In this document: positions 3,634 through 26,671 of the stretch, one piece after another | Position numbering within the stretch: the stretch's first letter is position 1 | Layout: the number at the start of each line of letters is the position of its first letter | From: a virus | Virus record (IMG/VR): IMGVR_UViG_3300043467_000479 | Location: 1-27,718 of that record | DNA length: 27,718 bases | Reading direction: 5' to 3' (one strand) | Notes under the pieces: generated by a model | Told to the model about the DNA's origin: nothing | Database searches by the model: none | The model's input: only the letters and a program-made list of their open reading frames with translations | Program-made: the position numbers and the translations under genes

Positions 3634-6600
3634 GTGGCACAATCAGTCGGAAGTCTCAATGTAGAACTCAGTGCTGATGCCTCGAAACTCAAACAAGGCG
3701 TCGCTCAGGCCGTCAAAACAATTGACCAACTCGGTGAGAAGTTCGATGAGGTAGGTCGAGACGCAACTGCTGGTATGGCGAAAGCCGAGCGAGCGGTCAC
3801 AAAGGTTGCCCAAGAGACCAAACAATCTCTCAGCAAAGTTCAACAAGCGTACGCGAAAGCGTCTTACGGTGTCGACGAGTTCAGTCTTGCTTATCATCAG
3901 ATGGCGCAGAAGGTTGCTAGAGACTCTAAGAAGATTGAGCAAGCCAGTGACAGTGCTTCTCGTGTAGGTAACAAGTTCACCGACATGGGTAGCAAGATGA
4001 CTTCTGTCGGCACGAAGATGTCGATGGCTTTGACTGCACCTATGTTGCTCGCGGGTGGTCAAGCGATAAAGACAGCGAACGACTTTGAGTTCTCGATGCA
4101 GTCAATCGTGGCGATGGTCGGTTTGTCTGAAGACAAAGTTGCTGACATGGGTATCGCCGCTCGTGAAATGGCGAAGCAATACGGTGGCAGTGCTACTCAA
4201 GCCGCTGATGCTTTGTACTTCGTTGCGTCAGCAGGTATCGACGGTGCGACAGCGATGCAAGTTCTTGAGCAGTCGTTGAAAGCGACAGCGATTGGTATGG
4301 GCGATACGAGCATTATTGCTGACACTGTGTCGTCTGCGTTGAACGCTTACGGTATCGAGAACTTGTCTGCGGCTCAAGCAACAGACTTGATGGTTGCGGC
4401 TGTTCGTGAAGGCAAGATGGAAGCAGATCAGTTGGCTGGGGCGTTGCCTAGAGTTCTGCCGATTGCGTCAGCGATGGGTGTTTCGTTCAACGAAGTCGGT
4501 GCGGCTTTTGCGGCGATGAGTCGTAACGGTACAGATGCAAGCGAAGCGGCAACTCAGATACGTGGAATCTTGGGTTCTTTGTTGACACCAACTAAAGAAG
4601 CAGAAGAGACGATGAACAGTCTCGGTCTGAGCAGTCAAGGCTTACGTCAACAGATCAAAGAGAAGGGCTTGCTGTCAGCGTTGCAGACACTGACACAAGC
4701 GTTCGGTGATAACGAACAAGCACAAGGACTCGTCTTCGGCAACGTTCGTGCGTTGACAGGTATCATGAGTATGTTCGGTGCGGCAACAGAGAGCACGACA
4801 AAGATATTCAACAACCTTGCTGACAACACAGGCGACGCAGACAAAGCGTTCCAAGCAATGTCATCGACAGGTGCTTTCAAGATGAAGCAAGTCATGGCAG
4901 AAGTGAAAGACGCTTTCATAAGCCTTGGTCAAGTGCTCGTGCCAATCGTTGTGCCTGCATTGAAGTTGCTTGCAACAGCCTTCGAGAAGGTCATGACGGC
5001 TATCAACGCTCTACCGAACTTCATGAAGACGATCATCGTTGTGTTCGCTGGTCTTGTTGCCGTCGGTGGTCCGTTGTTGATCACGCTCGGTTCGTTAGTG
5101 AAAGCGTGGGCCGCATTGAAAGCCGCTATGGCGACGACAGCGTTCACGAGTGCGATCGCACAGTTTGCGGCGGCTGGACCAATCATTGCTGGTGTTGCTG
5201 TAGCGGTAGTCGCTGTAGCGGCAGTGTGGTACACGTTCAGTCAGAACGCACAAGAAGCCAAAGAAAGACAAGAGCGATTGACTGACGCGTTCAAGTCAGC
5301 AGGTGAACCGACCGCTGTACTTCACGAGCAAGTCAAGGCTCTCGTCGATGAATACATTAAGTTGCAAGGAACTTTGCCTGCTACTACTAATGCGGCTGAA
5401 AGTGTTGCTGAGGCTTTTGCAACGGCTGAAGCGATGACGATGGGTATCAACGATGAGATCGGTGACCTGAATCTAACAATGTCAGAAGTCAGTCAAGTAT
5501 TAGCGACAGGCACTGATGCCTTCGGTGACCTTGGTGACGTGTTGTTAGGACTGTCGTACGATCAACTTGTTCAGACAGGCGAAGCCGCAATAGGAGTCAC
5601 GTCTGCTTTGCAAAGTGCCGCTGATGCTGGCACACCCTTTGCGGGTGCGATGCTTGAAGCAGTGAGGGCTGGAGAGATGACGGGCGAACAGGTGAAGAAC
5701 TTGTTGTACGACCTGCATGATCTGTCTAACGCTTTCGATGACAACAGAGAAGCGTTGAACAATGAGAACAAGGCCTTGCTAGAGAACGCTGACACCGCCA
5801 AGTATTTCTCTTCAATACTTGGTAGCGACCTTTACAATGCAATTCTCGGCTCAAGTGGGGCTATGGCTGTAGCCGCTGGTCGCACTGATGTCTATACGTA
5901 CACCGTTGAAGAATTGACTCGTCGAACAGTTAGCGCAACAGCGGCGCAGAACGCTTACTTAGGAGGGTTCGCTGGTGTGTTCCCTGAAGTAATAACTACA
6001 GCAGGCAAAGTTGTACAAGAACTATCTGTTATATACGGCGAGTTAGCAAGTGAAAGCGACAAGGGTACAGTCGCTCAAGATAGGTTCTTGGCGAAGATTG
6101 GTTTGCTCGACGAGATGCTTGCTAACGAATTAGTCGTCAGCACGCAAGACGCAATCGACAAGAACATCAAACTCGCAGACACTCTTGGCGACTCACAGGG
6201 TTCTGCACTTGATCTCAGTTCTGCTTATCGTAACCAAGCGAAAGAGATCACGACACTGTTGCTGAAGACGGCTCAGTACGGTGGTTCTAACAAAGACGCA
6301 ATGCAATCAGTCGCACTTATGGTTCTTCGGTTGGGTGATGCCGCACGTGCGGCTGGGTACACCGATGAGCAGGTACGTGGACTCATTGACTCGATGGGGA
6401 TACTCGACGGACTTGAGGCACAGTTCGGTGTGAACTTTGCTATCAACACCGCTGACCTCGATAAGCAGATCGCAAACATAGAAGCCGCTATCGGCAATAT
6501 GTTGTGGTTCGCTGGTGCGGCAACAGGTGACACCACTTCCAAACTAAGTAAGACTCTTGCAGACTTGAAAGCAATCAAGTCTGCGATAGGTAGTTCAAGC

Positions 6601-8535
6601 GGTTCTAGCGGTGGCGGTCGTGGTGGCGGTGGCTCTTCTAAAGCCCAACCTGAGGACCCATTCGCTTGGGTTGAAGGTTGGGTCGACGACATAGCGAGTT
6701 ATGCGAACGAACTGATCTCAACAGACTTCCGTGACGCTCTGCTATCAGGTTCATCGAAAGACATCGCAAAAGCATTACAAGCAACACTCGAAGAAGCAAC
6801 CCGCCTTGGTTTGCAAAACTTGCCACAGTTTGCAGGGTTTATCGACAAGATCAAAGAGCAGTTCGCTCGTCTTGGCGACCTCGCTGATCTAAGAGATTCG
6901 CTGACAACACAACTCGCCGAAGCAACTAAGTCGCTAGACAAGTTGAAGTCAACGTTAGATAACACAGCCGAAGCCGCTGGAAGGTTTGATTCAACCATTG
7001 CTGGCAGTCAAGCACCATTGACGACGTTGCTCGACCAAGCGTTAGCGGCTCAGGCGACTCTTGATGATCTCAAGTCAACACTTGACAACACAGCACAAGC
7101 CGCAGGCAGGTTTGACTCAACCATTACGGGCAGTGAGAAACCACTAACCACCTTACTCGACCAAGCGTTAGCGGCACAGGAAACTCTTGATGGTCTTAAG
7201 TTAAAACTAGATGAGACAGCACAAGCCGCAGGCTTATTTGATTCTAGTATCTCAGGCAGTCAAGCACCGTCGAATACATTGCTCGACCAAGCATTAGCGG
7301 CACAAAAGAAATACGACGAACTGTTCTCGAAGAGTGAGTCGCTTAAGCAACAGCAGAGTGAACTTGCTAGGAGTGTTTCAGATTCTGTATTGCAACCCAT
7401 TACCGCACGCAGTCCACTAGGTAATACTCGCAAACTGTTACAGCAAGCCACGACGTTCCGTGACAACTTGTCTGCGTTACGAGACAAGGGTTTTGGTCCT
7501 GACATTATTGGTCAAGTTGCTCAAGCGGGTATTCTTGAAGGCAACAAGATCGCAAAGAGTCTGCTCAACTTGTCATCAGGTGATATCGCTGAACTGACAC
7601 AGATGCGTACGGACATCGCCGCTATTGGTGCTCAGGCTGGTGAGATTGCTGGCAGTGTTATCTTTGGCGCAGACATTGCGAACGCAAACGGTGAACTAGA
7701 TGCTCAGCGTTCTCTTGTTCGTCAGTTGTTCACTGACGCTATCGCTGAGGCGAAAGCACAAGCCGACGCTCAACGTGCTCTCACTGGTACGTTGTTCACT
7801 GATGCTGTCGCTGAGGCAAGAGCACAGTTCGACGCTCAACGTGCTCTCGCTCGCTCGTTGTTCACTGATGCTGTCGCTGAGGCACAAGCCAAATATGATC
7901 TACAGAAGACTCTCGTAGACGGGCTTGAAGCAAGCCTCGCTACAGCGAACACTCAAATGGCTAATCTCGTGTACGCAATTCAAGTTGATCTGTACAACAC
8001 GATGTTCGGTTTCTTGGCAGGGTTCAATGGTGGTATCGACAAACTTAAGGGCGCACCAACACACGCTGACCCTGTTATGTCAATACCAAAACCACCAACG
8101 ATTCCGTCTGCACCTGCACCCGTAGTATCTGCACCTGCTATGCCTAATCTACCTATCAACATCGACTTCGGTGCGATTGGTGAAACTATGGCACAGAAGA
8201 TCAAGAAGTTGAAGCCGGGTCAGTTTGTCGGCTGGAATGACGGACCGTTACCGAACGGCGGTGCAATCGTTGGTGGTTACTACTTGCCACCGGGTCTTGA
8301 CTTCAGTGGATTCCATGCTGAGGGTGGTGTGACTACTCGTGCGTCGCTCGGCGTCATCGGAGAGAACGGGCCTGAGGCGATCATTCCTCTGTCACGTATG
8401 GGCGAATTCGGTGGTGGCGACACGTACATCACTGTGAATGTTTCAGGCACTGTTACGAGTGAGCGTGATCTTGTTGAGCAGATTCGTCAGGGTCTTATTC
8501 GTTCGCAGAAGAGTGGCAAGGCGTTGATCGTATGA
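3634..8535 (+). CDS. Tail tape measure protein
   Basis: 1633 residues starting at GTG 3634 (AGGAAGAG upstream). Residues about 150-350 match the TP901-type tape measure core (FEFSMQSIVAMVGLSEDKVA, then YGGSATQAADALYFVASAGI). Two hydrophobic stretches at about 466-492 and 513-536 are the membrane-spanning parts expected for genome injection. A Gly/Ser-rich hinge lies near 987-1003. Residues 1101-1226 are three tandem 42-residue repeats, and 1356-1421 are three 22-residue repeats. Near 1576-1586 is GENGPEAIIPL, a common C-terminal motif of this family. With the usual 0.15 nm per residue, the predicted tail is about 245 nm. It is preceded by the chaperone genes and overlaps the next gene by four bases (ATGA). 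Confidence 0.95.
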   Translation: MAQSVGSLNVELSADASKLKQGVAQAVKTIDQLGEKFDEVGRDATAGMAKAERAVTKVAQETKQSLSKVQQAYAKASYGVDEFSLAYHQMAQKVARDSKKIEQASDSASRVGNKFTDMGSKMTSVGTKMSMALTAPMLLAGGQAIKTANDFEFSMQSIVAMVGLSEDKVADMGIAAREMAKQYGGSATQAADALYFVASAGIDGATAMQVLEQSLKATAIGMGDTSIIADTVSSALNAYGIENLSAAQATDLMVAAVREGKMEADQLAGALPRVLPIASAMGVSFNEVGAAFAAMSRNGTDASEAATQIRGILGSLLTPTKEAEETMNSLGLSSQGLRQQIKEKGLLSALQTLTQAFGDNEQAQGLVFGNVRALTGIMSMFGAATESTTKIFNNLADNTGDADKAFQAMSSTGAFKMKQVMAEVKDAFISLGQVLVPIVVPALKLLATAFEKVMTAINALPNFMKTIIVVFAGLVAVGGPLLITLGSLVKAWAALKAAMATTAFTSAIAQFAAAGPIIAGVAVAVVAVAAVWYTFSQNAQEAKERQERLTDAFKSAGEPTAVLHEQVKALVDEYIKLQGTLPATTNAAESVAEAFATAEAMTMGINDEIGDLNLTMSEVSQVLATGTDAFGDLGDVLLGLSYDQLVQTGEAAIGVTSALQSAADAGTPFAGAMLEAVRAGEMTGEQVKNLLYDLHDLSNAFDDNREALNNENKALLENADTAKYFSSILGSDLYNAILGSSGAMAVAAGRTDVYTYTVEELTRRTVSATAAQNAYLGGFAGVFPEVITTAGKVVQELSVIYGELASESDKGTVAQDRFLAKIGLLDEMLANELVVSTQDAIDKNIKLADTLGDSQGSALDLSSAYRNQAKEITTLLLKTAQYGGSNKDAMQSVALMVLRLGDAARAAGYTDEQVRGLIDSMGILDGLEAQFGVNFAINTADLDKQIANIEAAIGNMLWFAGAATGDTTSKLSKTLADLKAIKSAIGSSSGSSGGGRGGGGSSKAQPEDPFAWVEGWVDDIASYANELISTDFRDALLSGSSKDIAKALQATLEEATRLGLQNLPQFAGFIDKIKEQFARLGDLADLRDSLTTQLAEATKSLDKLKSTLDNTAEAAGRFDSTIAGSQAPLTTLLDQALAAQATLDDLKSTLDNTAQAAGRFDSTITGSEKPLTTLLDQALAAQETLDGLKLKLDETAQAAGLFDSSISGSQAPSNTLLDQALAAQKKYDELFSKSESLKQQQSELARSVSDSVLQPITARSPLGNTRKLLQQATTFRDNLSALRDKGFGPDIIGQVAQAGILEGNKIAKSLLNLSSGDIAELTQMRTDIAAIGAQAGEIAGSVIFGADIANANGELDAQRSLVRQLFTDAIAEAKAQADAQRALTGTLFTDAVAEARAQFDAQRALARSLFTDAVAEAQAKYDLQKTLVDGLEASLATANTQMANLVYAIQVDLYNTMFGFLAGFNGGIDKLKGAPTHADPVMSIPKPPTIPSAPAPVVSAPAMPNLPINIDFGAIGETMAQKIKKLKPGQFVGWNDGPLPNGGAIVGGYYLPPGLDFSGFHAEGGVTTRASLGVIGENGPEAIIPLSRMGEFGGGDTYITVNVSGTVTSERDLVEQIRQGLIRSQKSGKALIV
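6934..7311 (+). repeat. Three tandem 126-base coding repeats in the tape measure gene
   Basis: Units at 6934-7059, 7060-7185 and 7186-7311 are exactly 126 bases long and encode 42 residues each. Each contains an LDNTAxAAGxFDS-like segment and a TLLDQALAAQ segment. The first two units are close in DNA sequence and the third has diverged more. Confidence 0.9.
7699..7896 (+). repeat. Three tandem 66-base coding repeats in the tape measure gene
   Basis: Units at 7699-7764, 7765-7830 and 7831-7896 are 66 bases long and encode 22 residues each, with the shared pattern DAQRxL...LFTDA(V/I)AEA. The 22-residue period fits an amphipathic helix or coiled coil. DNA identity between units 2 and 3 is high. 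Confidence 0.9.
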
Positions 8536-21980: not shown

Positions 21981-22229
21981 ATGACAGACATAACCACAAC
22001 CGAACCAATGAACGACAAACTCAATGAGGCTCGCCGCCTCACAGGACAGATGCGTGAACTCGAACAAGAGATCATGAATCTCAATAATCAACGTAGAAAC
22101 CTGATACGGTCATCATGGAAGGACGATGGACTTCCCCAACGTCAAATCGCAAACGCTCTCGGCCTGACCAATCAAACGGTATGGAATGAGATCCACCGAA
22201 AGGACAGCAATGACTCTTCTACCAAGTGA
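21981..22229 (+). CDS. Small helix-turn-helix protein
   Basis: 82 residues with AGGAGG before ATG 21981. Residues 1-45 form a coiled coil (ARRLTGQMRELEQEIMNLNN), and residues 50-74 contain DDGLPQRQIANALGLTNQTV, a resolvase/sigma-like helix-turn-helix (GLTNQTVWNEI as recognition helix). It overlaps the ParB-like gene by 20 bases. It is the only clear HTH regulator-like protein in the window apart from the initiator, so it is a candidate to bind the palindromes at 1465, 15887 and 26811, or to guide the modification enzymes. Both uses are inference. Confidence 0.75.
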   Translation: MTDITTTEPMNDKLNEARRLTGQMRELEQEIMNLNNQRRNLIRSSWKDDGLPQRQIANALGLTNQTVWNEIHRKDSNDSSTK

Positions 22230-22812
22230 CTACGAACTGGTCGACGCAACAACACTGACACTCCACCCTGACAACGCACGACGAGGCAACGTCGAACGCT
22301 TAGAAGAATCAATCCGTACCAACGGCTTCTATGGTGCGCTTGTAGTACAGAAGGCAACACGCCACATCGTCGTCGGCAACCATCGCTATCAGGCTGCGGT
22401 CAATGTAGGCATCGAACAGATACCAGTGCTATGGGTAGACGTTGATGATCAGCAGGCTCGCAAACTACTTCTCGTAGACAACCGTTCAAACGATGTTGCG
22501 TCATACGACGACGACCTGTTGATCGACCTACTACGCCTCACACAAGCCGAAGGCGGGCTAGAGGGTTCGGGCTACAACGACATTGACCTTGAAGACTTAG
22601 AACGACTCTTGACCCCACCCAACCTCGACGACCTCATCAAGAACATTGGTGCTCACGACGACGACTCAGTGTTCAACCCCACCATCTCAATCAAGGTCGA
22701 ACCCGAAACCAATGCACGCTGGCAACGGGTGTTCGCAACAGTAGAAGGCAAAGACGATGACGAGCGAATCAACACACTCCTCGACTACGCCGACCCTCTC
22801 ATCAACGAATAA
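22210..22812 (+). CDS. ParB-like (ParB/sulfiredoxin-fold) protein next to DpdA
   Basis: 200 residues from ATG 22210. AAAGGA lies five to six bases upstream, so I prefer it to the ATG at 22186. Residues 9-100 show the ParB N-terminal fold: LHPDNARRGNVERLEESIRT, then VVGNHRYQAAVNVGIEQIPV, with the GNHRYQAA nucleotide-binding box at 56-63. There is no DNA-binding HTH of a true partition ParB, and no parA or parS is nearby. From memory, bacterial 7-deazaguanine insertion systems use DpdB, an ATPase related to ParB/sulfiredoxin folds, together with DpdA. This gene directly precedes DpdA, so a DpdB-like helper is plausible. The C-terminal half (ISIKVEPETNARWQRVFATV) has no assigned motif. Confidence 0.75.
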   Translation: MTLLPSDYELVDATTLTLHPDNARRGNVERLEESIRTNGFYGALVVQKATRHIVVGNHRYQAAVNVGIEQIPVLWVDVDDQQARKLLLVDNRSNDVASYDDDLLIDLLRLTQAEGGLEGSGYNDIDLEDLERLLTPPNLDDLIKNIGAHDDDSVFNPTISIKVEPETNARWQRVFATVEGKDDDERINTLLDYADPLINE

Positions 22813-22813
22813 C

Positions 22814-22891
22814 GGACCTCACGTTTACCTTGTAACGATGACCCATGAAGCCGACGCAATCACCAAAACAGGTCCGCACGTATACCTTGTA
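22814..22891 (+). repeat. Imperfect 21-base duplication around the DpdA start
   Basis: GGACCTCACGTTTACC... at 22814-22834 and GGTCCGCACGTATACC... at 22871-22891 match at 18 of 21 positions, 57 bases apart (19 codons, in frame). Both translate as GPHVYLV in the DpdA frame. The first copy is upstream of the preferred ATG. Confidence 0.7.
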
Positions 22892-23908
22892 CTTAGTGCT
22901 CTCAACAGCGTCGCGCCTATCGCAGAGGCAGATATGAAAGAACATACAGAAGGACTCAACCTTCATCTAGCCCTGAGCGGAGAAGAGAAACAACTGCCGA
23001 TCGTACCGACAACACAAGCACAACCCTTCAAGATGTTGATCTCATATCACTACTACAAGAAGGTCGACATCGCGGCAGTGCTAGCAAAGTTCCCAACACG
23101 CCCAATGGTGTTCGCCGATTCGGGTGCGTTCAGTGCTTACTCACAGGGTGCTGATGTAAAGGTTGCCGACTACGCGGCTTGGTTGAAACAATGGGAATCA
23201 CTGTTCACGACATACGTAAACCTTGACGTCATTAGAGATGCAAAAGCGACAGCCATCAACCAACGCTACTTAGAGAACCAAGGCTTGAATCCAATCCCTG
23301 TCGTGCATACAGGTACTGATCTCAAAGTTCTTGATGACATGGCAAAGAATTACGGCTACATCGCCCTCGGTGGAATGGTTGGCGTACCCGGCCCAACAGC
23401 GTTGAAGTGGACAGCGACGTGCTTCAAACGAGTTGAGGGTAAGGACACAGTGTTTCACGGCTTCGGTCAAACACGCAACGACATCATTCAAGCGTTACCT
23501 TGGTTCAGTGTTGACTCATCATCATGGGGAATGGGACATCGCTTCGGTCGACTAGCAGTGTGGACAGGACGTAAGTTCGAAACCTGTGGAGTCGGTGACG
23601 CGCAGTCTGTTTACAAGGTCGCGTCGTTCATTCGTAAGTACGGTGGTGACCCTGAAGACCTAGCCGACCGCTCGCGCTATCACAGAACAAAGATCATTCC
23701 CGTAGCCGCTAACTCTTGGAGAGCATACGAGCAGTTCCTAAGAAAGAAACATGGTGCGGTGCCATTACCAACACGTGCAAACAAACTGCATCACTACCGT
23801 GGCGCTATTGATGACATAGCATCACAAGGCGACAAAGGTTTACACCTACACCTCGCCGAAGGGTCAATAGAAAACCTACTCACAGCAGCCAAAGGAGAAA
23901 CAGAATGA
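22838..23908 (+). CDS. dpdA: DpdA-like DNA guanine transglycosylase (preQ0 insertion)
   Basis: 356 residues from ATG 22838; a longer frame from 22757 would overlap the ParB-like gene. The fold is the tRNA-guanine transglycosylase type: MVFADSGAFSAYSQG (Asp94, matching DSGGF of TGT), YVNLDVI (Asp130), YIALGGMVG (176-182), FHGFGQ (206-211) and FSVDSSSWGMG (Asp226, near the expected nucleophile region). ISYHYYKK at 68-75 is another phrase I recall from phage DpdA proteins. It should replace guanine in DNA with a 7-deazaguanine base. The four preQ0 genes follow at once, overlapping by four bases at QueC, which is strong context. A cellular tRNA TGT would not sit in such a cassette. Confidence 0.85.
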   Translation: MTHEADAITKTGPHVYLVLSALNSVAPIAEADMKEHTEGLNLHLALSGEEKQLPIVPTTQAQPFKMLISYHYYKKVDIAAVLAKFPTRPMVFADSGAFSAYSQGADVKVADYAAWLKQWESLFTTYVNLDVIRDAKATAINQRYLENQGLNPIPVVHTGTDLKVLDDMAKNYGYIALGGMVGVPGPTALKWTATCFKRVEGKDTVFHGFGQTRNDIIQALPWFSVDSSSWGMGHRFGRLAVWTGRKFETCGVGDAQSVYKVASFIRKYGGDPEDLADRSRYHRTKIIPVAANSWRAYEQFLRKKHGAVPLPTRANKLHHYRGAIDDIASQGDKGLHLHLAEGSIENLLTAAKGETE

Positions 23909-24594
23909 AAGCGTTAGCAATCGTCAGCGGCGGTATGGACTCAACAGTTCTCACCTACGACCTAGTCAATAAGGGTTACGACGTTCATCTCATGTCGTTC
24001 AACTACGGACAACGACACAAGAAAGAACTTGACTACGCCAAGATCACATCAGGCAAACTCCGTCTCAACCACACCATTGTCGACATCACACACCTCACAG
24101 GACTCATCAGTAAGTCCACACTGACCAGCGACGCACCCGTACCCGACGGTCACTACGCCGAAGACAACATGAGAAAGACGGTCGTACCGAACCGCAACAG
24201 CATCATGCTCAACATCGCTGCGGGATACGCCGTCACTATGGGCGCGAACGTTCTCGCTACTGCTGTCCACTCAGGCGACCACTACATCTACCCTGACTGC
24301 CGACCACAGTTCATTGACGCCCTACAGAACCTGCTTCACGTAGCCAACGAGGGTTTCATTGAAGAGGACTTCAAAGTGTTCGCTCCGTATGTACAAATCC
24401 CCAAAGATGGAATCTGTAGCATTGGCAACGACCTCAACGTACCGTGGCTCGACACTTGGTCGTGCTACAAGGGCAACGACATTCACTGCGGTTCGTGTGG
24501 TACTTGCTTTGAGCGTCGCGAGGCGTTTGAATTAGCAGGAGTAGAAGACCCAACCGAATACCTAGCGAGGCCACACTATGACGACCCAAGATGA
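23905..24594 (+). CDS. queC: 7-cyano-7-deazaguanine (preQ0) synthase
   Basis: 229 residues, normal length for QueC. SGGMDST (residues 8-14) is the ATP-binding loop. NYGQRHKKEL (33-42) and VPNRNS (94-99) are conserved substrate-region phrases. Cys187, Cys195, Cys198 and Cys201 (WSCYKGN, then HCGSCGTC) form the zinc site. It turns 7-carboxy-7-deazaguanine into preQ0 with ATP and ammonia. No amidotransferase (GAT) domain is fused, so archaeosine-type products are not expected from this protein. AAGGAGAA lies upstream, and its start overlaps the DpdA stop (ATGA). Confidence 0.95.
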   Translation: MKALAIVSGGMDSTVLTYDLVNKGYDVHLMSFNYGQRHKKELDYAKITSGKLRLNHTIVDITHLTGLISKSTLTSDAPVPDGHYAEDNMRKTVVPNRNSIMLNIAAGYAVTMGANVLATAVHSGDHYIYPDCRPQFIDALQNLLHVANEGFIEEDFKVFAPYVQIPKDGICSIGNDLNVPWLDTWSCYKGNDIHCGSCGTCFERREAFELAGVEDPTEYLARPHYDDPR

Positions 24595-25021
24595 AACCCT
24601 AAGAGTGATCAAACGCTTCGGCGGCTTCCCATGCTGTCACCGCCAATGGCGCGATCGTGGTCACTGCCATTACCTACACGGGTACGACCGCTGGGTCGAA
24701 GTTGAATGGGAAGGTACACGAGACGAACGAGGTTGGGTAGTTGACTTCGCCGACCTCAAAATCTTACGTGACGCTCTTGAGTATCAATTCGATCACACTG
24801 TGCTAGTGAGCGAGGACGACCCGTGCCTAGAACAGATCCAATACCTCGGCGCTGCGGACGCTTTAGACCTTCGCATCATGGACCCAACAATGGAAGGCAT
24901 GGTCAATTGGGTACGTGACCAAGCAGTTACATTGACCAACACAAGATTCCCGAACGCCAAGGTCATTCGAGTGACGTGTTGGGAGAACGAAAAGAACGCC
25001 GCGTCGTGGCAGGCGAGTTGA
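24578..25021 (+). CDS. queD: 6-carboxy-5,6,7,8-tetrahydropterin synthase-like, variant zinc site
   Basis: 147 residues, overlapping QueC by 17 bases. Pattern: RFGGFPCCHRQW (His21 zinc ligand), then GHCHYLHGYDRWVEV where Cys30 is the catalytic Cys and His34 a zinc ligand. The usual motif is CxxxHGH, but position 36 is Tyr instead of His. His31 is nearby and may take over. Further matches are GWVVDFADLK (52-61), FDHTVL (Asp72-His73) and Glu136. Action: dihydroneopterin triphosphate to 6-carboxytetrahydropterin, the second step to preQ0. The genome context makes this the QueD of the set despite the altered ligand. Confidence 0.9.
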   Translation: MTTQDETLRVIKRFGGFPCCHRQWRDRGHCHYLHGYDRWVEVEWEGTRDERGWVVDFADLKILRDALEYQFDHTVLVSEDDPCLEQIQYLGAADALDLRIMDPTMEGMVNWVRDQAVTLTNTRFPNAKVIRVTCWENEKNAASWQAS

Positions 25022-25764
25022 TGACCGACTACTACGTGATACAGAACGGACGCTCACTAAGTGTTGCTGAGAAGTTCGGTCCTACGTTGCAAGGCGAAGG
25101 ACCATCACTCGGTAAGCCAGCCATGTTCTTACGCTTGGGTCTTTGCAACCTTGACTGCTCGTGGTGTGACACACCCTTCACATGGGATTGGACTGGTAAG
25201 AACGGAGTCAAGTACGACAAGGCCGAACAACTGTCACGCGTAACACTTGAAGAGATTGTCGATTGGTTTGTGGCAAGCGGTACTAACCGACTCGTCATTA
25301 CTGGTGGCGAGCCGTTGGTACAGAAGGCTGGACTGGTCAAACTGGTACACCTGTTGCTCGACGTGAACCCCGACTACCGCATTGAGATCGAAACCAACGG
25401 AACGATTGAACCGCCGTTAGCAATCTTTGAACTCGTGCAGTGGAACATCTCACCGAAACTCGCGTCGTCGGGAGTTCACATTGCGAAGCGTTACATACCG
25501 AACGCTCTTGAACGTTTCACGGAATGTCCACAACACTCATTCAAGTTTGTTATCTGCGACCCTGTACGTGACCTACTTGAGATCAAAGAGATGGTTCGTC
25601 TCCACGGCCTGTCTATGCAAGACGTCTACTTGATGCCCGAAGGCCGAAGCGCAGACGAGATCAACGCTCGCCTACCCGAACTCTTTGACATCGCCACAAC
25701 AGAAGGCACTAATGTCACCACACGCCTTCACGTCCTAGCCTTCGGTGACCGCAGAGGAGTATGA
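25021..25764 (+). CDS. queE: 7-carboxy-7-deazaguanine synthase (radical SAM)
   Basis: 247 residues from ATG 25021, overlapping the QueD stop by one base. The earlier in-frame ATG at 24976 lies inside QueD. The radical-SAM cluster motif is CNLDCSWC at residues 42-49 (CxxxCxxC). GPTLQGEGPSLGKPAMFLRL (20-39) is the typical QueE opening and VITGGEPLVQ (92-101) the SAM-binding GGE motif. IEIETNGTIEPP and WNISPKLASSG are also typical. It rearranges 6-carboxytetrahydropterin to 7-carboxy-7-deazaguanine. Length is in the usual range for the longer QueE form. Confidence 0.95.
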   Translation: MTDYYVIQNGRSLSVAEKFGPTLQGEGPSLGKPAMFLRLGLCNLDCSWCDTPFTWDWTGKNGVKYDKAEQLSRVTLEEIVDWFVASGTNRLVITGGEPLVQKAGLVKLVHLLLDVNPDYRIEIETNGTIEPPLAIFELVQWNISPKLASSGVHIAKRYIPNALERFTECPQHSFKFVICDPVRDLLEIKEMVRLHGLSMQDVYLMPEGRSADEINARLPELFDIATTEGTNVTTRLHVLAFGDRRGV

Positions 25765-25765
25765 A

Positions 25766-26671
25766 ATGACAACCACCCTGACTCTCACTTGGAACGACAT
25801 CAACGAACAGGTCGACAAACTTTGTTTGCGTGTACGTAACAACCCGACAGGCGTTTACGGCATACCAACTGGCGGTGCGGTCGTCGCAGCACTGGTTGCA
25901 AACAAACTCGGCTTGCCACTACGTGAAACAGCCGACGACCCCCACACGCTCATCGTTGACGACCTCATCGACACAGGGCGCACAATGAAACAGGTGCGAC
26001 CCGACGGTGGAATCCATGTTGAAACTTTGTACCGCAAGCCGTGGTCGCCCGCAATGTATTCACCGAACGCAACCACGACCGACCGTTGGCTCGCGTTTCC
26101 GTGGGAGAAAGAAGACGGCGACCCTGTCGATGCAGTTATTCGTTTGCTTCAACACGTCGGCGAAGACCCCACACGTGACGGCTTACTCGAAACACCACGG
26201 CGCGTCACGAAGGCTTGGCGTGAACTGACTAAGGGTTACGGCGACAACCCAGCAGTGATTCTCAGTAAGACATTTGATGTGAAGTACGACGAGATGGTCG
26301 TTGTTCGCCAACTGCCATTCACGTCACTGTGCGAGCACCACATCCTTCCGTTCATCGGTCATGCGACGATCGCTTACATCCCGACGTCACGTGTTGTCGG
26401 TTTGTCGAAGTTGGCTCGCCTGCTTGACTGCTACGCAAACAGGTTGCAGGTTCAAGAGCGCCTCACTGGACAACTCGCAGACGCCATCGAGGAACACTTG
26501 CAACCGAAGGGCGTCGGCATTGTCGTGTCGGCACAGCACACGTGCATGAGTATGCGTGGCATCAAGAAGAGTGGCGACACAGTGACGAGTGCCATGCGTG
26601 GAGTGTTCAGGACCAACCCCGAAGCCCGAGCCGAGTTGCTGTCCCTGCATCAAACACCTGTCAAGCCCTGA
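25766..26671 (+). CDS. folE: Fusion of short phosphoribosyltransferase and GTP cyclohydrolase I
   Basis: 301 residues from ATG 25766 (AGAGGAG upstream; TGA-A-ATG after QueE). Residues 1-115 are a small type I phosphoribosyltransferase: VYGIPTGGAVVAALVANKLG (30-49) is the pyrophosphate loop region and LIVDDLIDTGRT (62-73) the PRPP-binding motif. The gap between them is about 30 residues, shorter than in usual enzymes, so the flexible catalytic loop seems reduced. Residues about 120-295 are a full GTP cyclohydrolase I: GLLETPRRV (139-147), SLCEHHILPF with Cys189 and His192, and SAQHTCMSMRG with Cys260, the three zinc ligands. It makes dihydroneopterin triphosphate, the first step to preQ0. The attached domain may supply or recycle purine nucleotides. 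Confidence 0.93.
   Translation: MTTTLTLTWNDINEQVDKLCLRVRNNPTGVYGIPTGGAVVAALVANKLGLPLRETADDPHTLIVDDLIDTGRTMKQVRPDGGIHVETLYRKPWSPAMYSPNATTTDRWLAFPWEKEDGDPVDAVIRLLQHVGEDPTRDGLLETPRRVTKAWRELTKGYGDNPAVILSKTFDVKYDEMVVVRQLPFTSLCEHHILPFIGHATIAYIPTSRVVGLSKLARLLDCYANRLQVQERLTGQLADAIEEHLQPKGVGIVVSAQHTCMSMRGIKKSGDTVTSAMRGVFRTNPEARAELLSLHQTPVKP

Follow-up and report, generated by a model that had tools for sequence, protein, structure and literature searches.

Why should the GTP cyclohydrolase I (FolE) of a phage carry a phosphoribosyltransferase (PRT) domain ahead of its own? The question is raised by one 27.7 kb contig of an uncultured phage (IMG/VR virus record IMGVR_UViG_3300043467_000479, positions 1 to 27,718; this whole stretch of 27,718 nucleotides is called the window below), in which positions 25766-26671 of the plus strand encode a protein of 301 residues consisting of a type I PRT core (residues 1-116) and a complete FolE (residues 122-296). 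The open reading frame (ORF) starts with an ATG at 25766, 6 nt 3' of GAGGAG and 1 nt past the QueE stop codon, and an alternative in-frame GTG is found upstream, at 25745. It ends a row of genes in the order DpdA, QueC, QueD, QueE and then PRT-FolE, all on one strand, with ends that overlap or nearly touch:

22757-23908, plus strand: DpdA, phage-type DNA guanine transglycosylase (phrog_7068, 2.1e-48; phrog_887, 3.5e-47); longest frame, whose true start may be downstream
23905-24594, plus strand: QueC, 229 residues, in which no extra domain was found (PF06508, 4.2e-61; TIGR00364, 1.6e-56)
24578-25021, plus strand: QueD (PF01242, 1e-22; phrog_2389, 1.7e-33)
24976-25764, plus strand: QueE-like radical SAM protein (phrog_2076, 3.1e-51; TIGR03365, 5.9e-29, under the equivalog cut-off); likelier start ATG 25021
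25766-26119, plus strand: minimal PRT domain (residues 1-118) of the PRT-FolE fusion, from the profile and fold matches given below
25859-25876, plus strand: GIPTGG, PRT loop I (residues 32-37), by motif; T35 here, R in most relatives
25955-25984, plus strand: VDDLIDTGRT, PRPP-binding motif (residues 64-73); D69 corresponds by motif to HGPRT Asp137
26096-26107, plus strand: FPWE (residues 111-114), end of the purine site; PWE or PWD in solved relatives
26129-26671, plus strand: FolE domain (residues 122-301) and stop codon (PF01227, 5.6e-70); invariant C189, E190, H191, H192, H258 and C260

A ParB-like gene (22186-22812) lies ahead of the modification operon and runs into the 5' end of the longest DpdA frame, at 22757. 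The DpdA of the window scores 13.6 bits against the NCBI equivalog model NF041059, which is below its cut-off of 200. Passages of PMC6884629 describe such a gene set of phage 7-deazaguanine clusters as leading to dPreQ0.

The observation from which the sequence-only reading set out, GIPTGG and VDDLIDTGRT close together and followed by a complete FolE, is real: 26 residues lie between the motifs, and both profiles and fold support the assignment. Profile matches, fold match and conservation led us to reject a chance pair of motifs. An assembly join or a frameshift artefact was also rejected as the origin of the fusion, because the intact ORF recurs in other contigs, with 100% identity in L002 and 96% in L003 (53.9 kb), and partly (residues 1-134) in L004. 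The FolE half exceeds the equivalog cut-off of TIGR00063 (220.6 bits against 181.6), and all 50 matches listed in its PDB fold search are GTP cyclohydrolase I. Its CEHH and HxC residues, presumably the active-site and zinc residues, are invariant in 78 fused sequences.

The PRT half is matched by PF00156 just above the cut-off (28.2 against 26.3 bits), by phrog_8995 (2.3e-13) and by the NCBIfam XPRT model NF006613 (3e-11, 43.1 bits, short of the equivalog cut-off of 138). The AlphaFold2 model of this half alone has a pLDDT of 92.2 (75-row alignment), and that of the whole fused protein 94.9 (78-row alignment). Among the 50 PDB entries listed, the best fold match of the PRT model is E. coli XGPRT (4jls_I, Z 15.6, rmsd 2.6), spanning 116 of the 118 residues; structure prediction, which the sequence-only reading had proposed as a check, thus gave a confident XGPRT-like model. 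XGPRT with bound Mg:cPRPP and guanine (1a95) follows at Z 14.9, and the 6-oxopurine PRTs of Pyrococcus and Sulfolobus at 15.1 and 14.2, with the Helicobacter enzyme at 13.6. More distant folds are 5vog (Z 12.3), Sulfolobus APRT (11.6), PyrR (10.6) and yeast HGPRT (10.5), and the remaining APRT and OPRT entries among the matches listed reach at most 10.0.

E. coli XGPRT (Gpt; 1a95, 4jls) and the archaeal 6-oxopurine PRTs (1vdm, 5bqp; Z 14.2-15.6 for the whole group) share with the window PRT the type I core, loop I, the DDxxD[TS]G motif, a Lys at the O6 place and the ending W....PW[ED]. Unlike XGPRT, the window PRT has lost the loop-II stretch, has FolE attached, carries T for R in loop I and falls below the equivalog cut-off of NF006613. 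In a phmmer alignment with XGPRT chain 1a98, residues 6-52 of the window protein pair with XGPRT 6-54 and residues 53-114 with XGPRT 76-140, which leaves 21 XGPRT residues (55-75) without a partner; by its position, we take this gap to be where the flexible catalytic loop II would sit. In the AlphaFold2 model of the PRT, strand 61-68 follows helix 36-48 with no hairpin between them. The earlier remark that usual parts of the fold are missing was therefore correct, and the part concerned appears to be loop II. According to passages of PMC6783271, loop II is common to all HPRTs and covers the active site in catalysis. Judged from alignment and model, the PRT half has an XGPRT-like type I core fold without loop II.

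The ligand site is retained. The PRPP motif, two acidic residues with D[TS]GxT, is present as VDDLIDTGRT. In 138 non-identical PRTs from the matches listed, most of which were collected with search patterns that already contained some of the counted letters, D65, D66 and G37 are found in all 138, D69 in 137, K91 in 119, W108 in 135 and E114 in 135, with D at this place in 3. A less biased recount used 26 distinct PRTs (23 fused and 3 separate) at loci reached via FolE motifs, the PRT then being found by profile: G36, G37, D65, G71, T73, P112, W113 and E114 were kept in 26/26, D66 in 25, W108 in 24, and D69 and K91 in 22 each. Position 35 of loop I, T in the window, is R in 76 of 104 fused relatives. 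Table 2 of PMC2228302 has HGPRT Glu133 and Asp134 binding the ribose, Asp137 N7 and Lys165 O6. D69 and K91 of the window correspond to Asp137 and Lys165 by motif, not by a superposed ligand; their expected places near N7 and O6 suggest that the ligand is a 6-oxopurine whose N7 side is free. The ending FPWE, which the sequence-only reading linked with small actinophage PRTs, is not special to them, since FPWE-like endings are common to the wider XGPRT-like family.

Selection acts on both halves. Between the window and L003, dN/dS is 0.064 for the PRT and 0.052 for FolE, and the PRT ratio, computable for 8 of 10 pairs, ranges from 0 to 0.29. PRT dN is above FolE dN in 8 of the 10 pairs (in one by only 0.003) and below it in 2. 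Since dN/dS is low and PRT dN mostly the higher, the PRT is under purifying selection but less constrained than FolE. Conservation and purifying selection also led us to reject a degenerate PRT as far as the ligand site is concerned, whereas the loss of loop II stands.

How common the fusion is, the sequence-only reading could not say; it recurs in at least 118 non-identical loci from IMG/VR and named phages, PaMx25 and VpKK5 included. The 206 non-identical loci listed comprise 118 fused, 26 with separate PRT and FolE, 11 with PRT only and 51 with FolE only; such counts are not frequencies in nature, because the IMG/VR scans took the best 80 matches each. Duplicates, defined by the same last 100 residues, were dropped from these sets (171 to 145 loci, 250 to 206 loci) and kept in an 80-locus tally used below. 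Among named phages, tblastn matched some part of PRT-FolE in 392 records, 39 of them with at least 80% coverage at one place, and the VpKK5 PRT half as query matched 43 records. A regular expression, which gave no value for 22 of 138 PRTs, matched 89 fused cases, and in 84 of these the GG-to-DD spacing is 20-40. Short PRT forms are also present among the separate PRTs, and long versions in the group around L119, in phiST and in MaInes. The fused state switches about 16 times on a tree of 197 FolE sequences, against an average of 60.9 for shuffled labels, which indicates that it is also inherited in blocks.

The fusion was confirmed in PaMx25, Bhz54, MMDA13, VpKK5, Vibrio phage 1.207.B and VPv64, while NP1 and others are candidates from tblastn rows alone. 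All six have the domain order of the window at 41-49% identity and a DpdA profile match (6/6), and QueC/D/E-type genes adjoin the fusion in the five that are annotated, the VPv64 record being without annotation. They differ from the window in gene order, in an annotation that gives FolE only or is split, and, in MMDA13, in a QueF-like gene. In PaMx25 (L012:5865-6795) the annotation has gp38 and gp37, with gp38 in another frame, whereas one open frame of 297 residues (5902-6792) covers both PRT and FolE. The stand-alone PRTs of Campylobacter phage CP220, Flavobacterium phage immuto and Cellulophaga phage phiST align with the fused domain but are not fused; that of immuto is of the short kind and has FolE and a DpdA-like gene as neighbours. 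The PRTs of phiST and MaInes, unlike that of the window, retain a long loop-II region.

Does the PRT follow DpdA? Where 3.3 kb was visible on both sides, a limit chosen from the observed DpdA distances, DpdA was present in 58/58 fused, 36/36 FolE-only, 15/20 separate and 3/6 PRT-only loci among the matches listed. In 99 of the 100 listed fused loci whose piece includes DpdA, the distance to it is at most 3.3 kb; over all 100, DpdA lies upstream in 50 and downstream in 50. A Que gene lies no more than 700 nt upstream in 110 of the 118 listed. Whole records gave a DpdA match in 89/103 fused (window excluded), 19/23 separate, 7/11 PRT-only and 4/7 FolE-only cases. Thirteen of the 14 fused records without a match extend less than 2 kb beyond the gene on one side; in the fourteenth, L129, the search of the whole record was negative and that of the piece positive, the DpdA profile being borderline there. 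The expected co-occurrence of PRT-FolE with DpdA therefore holds in so far as fusions are not frequent, in this sample, in phages without DpdA, but FolE without PRT behaves in the same way, as it does in the FolE-motif set (47/52 without PRT against 27/28 with it; best 80 loci, 18 of them duplicates). For this reason the link with DpdA does not single out guanine recycling, and co-occurrence was rejected as proof of it.

The DpdA profile used, A4, joins two groups, A7 (phage DpdA proper) and A8 (phrog_19058). Their kinship is weak (profile comparison E 0.001, probability 22%), so the name DpdA is tentative in CP220, immuto and records of the L113, L121 and L148 type. CP220 gp056 (L252:2676-3449; NC_027997 54675-55451) is a phrog_19058 'hypothetical protein', weakly DpdA-like over its length, and its A4 match of 2e-37 is to be read knowing that A4 itself includes phrog_19058 members. 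By sequence, gp056 is a candidate dADG-inserting enzyme for the DNA of CP220, whose genome also has a PRT. Four records (L066, L168, L044 and L061) have two DpdA-like matches each, perhaps for two target motifs or as a two-subunit enzyme. In Brevundimonas phage MaInes (L016, L251), FolE and a full-length PRT come after ribonucleotide reductase (RNR) and a dNMP kinase; a hypothetical gene of this phage (57861-58661), one small gene from QueE, matches the DpdA profile at 2.3e-4 and no PHROG.

Phage operons can lack the PRT. Iggy, linked with dPreQ0 in passages of PMC11008142, shares with PaMx25 and VpKK5 the order QueE-QueC-QueD-FolE-DpdA-polymerase, with a FolE of 207 residues, and MiCath has an Iggy-like operon with a FolE of 186. 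A PRT profile search over the whole records found none in Iggy or MiCath and was positive for PaMx25 and VpKK5. The PRT is therefore accessory and not needed for the PaMx25-type pathway.

The fusion also occurs in cells. In a scan of cellular genome contigs we found at least eight relatives, one of them fused with FolE among the matches listed. This one, in Candidatus Peribacteria MFXT01000023 (L254:7863-8834), has as neighbours frames that by eye resemble SecD/F, DHFR and thymidylate synthase; in its genome (completeness not given) we found no A4 DpdA and no QueC, in a search run with no positive control alongside, and at least four PRT sites among the matches listed. In its class 94 of 192 genomes match, but this is the sole genome where a single piece spans the fusion at full length, which suggests capture from a phage; G308, of the same class, has PRT-like (5e-5) and FolE-like pieces 1.2 kb apart. 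Plasmid pSchITTGS70c of Sinorhizobium chiapasense has a QueD, PRT-FolE, QueE, QueC cluster (fusion at L278:5911-6804), annotated as plain FolE, with N at the place of D69, and A4 had no match in its 442.6 kb, again with no positive control alongside. These copies indicate that the domain can serve a purpose even in settings with no known DpdA. tRNA transglycosylation likewise frees guanine.

What, then, might the domain do? We favour, tentatively and at slightly less than even chances, that it is a minimal 6-oxopurine (guanine) salvage domain that feeds FolE and removes the by-product of DpdA. DpdA would exchange DNA guanine for 7-deazaguanine, the product of FolE, QueD, QueE and QueC, and would be the main source of free guanine, from which the PRT, with PRPP, would form GMP and PPi. 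Uptake of guanine would remove a product able to compete in the transglycosylase exchange, and GMP, after two host kinase steps, would become GTP for FolE. Through the fusion, the salvage domain would be tied in place and dosage to the enzyme that consumes GTP, with no closed channel. The cycle closed inside one protein, as first proposed, was overstated, because GMP needs two kinase steps elsewhere.

Part of the recycling idea stands: fold of the guanine type, retained PRPP and purine residues, purifying selection, place in the operon and DpdA nearby are all observed, and separate PRTs sit in the same clusters as DpdA (a profile match in the 19/23 records above, that of MaInes being only the 2.3e-4 one). 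For salvage the domain would also have to be active, take PRPP and guanine, release GMP, work in this direction and bring a benefit. What speaks most strongly against catalysis is the missing loop II. Against salvage are also the equal frequency of DpdA without PRT, the operons of Iggy and MiCath, the cellular fusions with no DpdA detected and the faster evolution of the PRT relative to FolE. Hosts, moreover, usually have guanine PRTs of their own. In a wider form of the salvage reading, which we consider possible but doubtful, an active type I PRT without loop II, carried on FolE, would retake guanine, whether released by DpdA or in tRNA transglycosylation, for the synthesis of 7-deazaguanine, as a module gained and lost across phage lineages and sometimes kept as a separate gene of the cluster.

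The loss of loop II with the ligand site kept is also what a regulator that only binds would display, and for this reason we retain this alternative, although as an unlikely one. The PRT core would bind PRPP, GMP or (p)ppGpp and, with no catalysis, tune the FolE oligomer (or, where unfused, another enzyme) to purine supply. PRT-fold regulators exist, and PyrR and the ppGpp-bound PRT-fold protein 5vog are among the fold matches given above. In passages of PMC6783271, B. subtilis HPRT with residues 70-76 deleted binds pppGpp like the wild type, whereas a longer deletion (69-77) loses binding. The retention of K91 and W108 on the base side argues against a regulator, as does the existence of unfused PRTs of this family, some of them long forms, in at least the 26 non-identical loci where PRT and FolE are separate.

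It is improbable that the fused domain converts preQ0 or its derivatives to a nucleotide for the polymerase, as a second route beside DpdA. Such a route would agree with phiST, which has no A4 match and encodes ribonucleotide reductase and MazG, with MaInes, where RNR, dNMP kinase, FolE and PRT are in a row and the best DpdA match is the poor one already mentioned, and with L112, a record of 166 kb with a short separate PRT and no A4 match. The PRTs of phiST and MaInes bear loop II, and the route suits these two phages better than the window. Against it, the presence of DpdA in every full-context fused locus among the matches listed makes it needless there, and a 7-cyano group would be expected to sit where D69, the Asp near N7 in HGPRT, is kept in most of the recounted PRTs. 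Less probable still is that FolE has retained a former PRT as a module for oligomerisation or folding. The repeated changes of the fused state and the higher dN of the PRT would allow this, but a mere spacer would not keep ligand-site residues as the most conserved positions (26/26).

All parts of the protein belong to known families, and the fusion is present, unremarked, in named phages, where it is annotated as FolE or wrongly split. In the literature searched, outside of which most subscription journals lie, we found no published description of a PRT-FolE fusion or of guanine recycling, and the string 'phosphoribosyl' is absent from PMC6884629, PMC7472734 and PMC8306585. In that literature, work on 7-deazaguanine DNA traces the making and insertion of the base, not the fate of the guanine displaced. 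A salvage domain on the entry enzyme, if true, makes this fate testable, and PRT-FolE would test whether a type I PRT works when the loop over its active site is lacking. Whatever its role, a second domain has been overlooked in many FolE-annotated genes of cultivable phage isolates.
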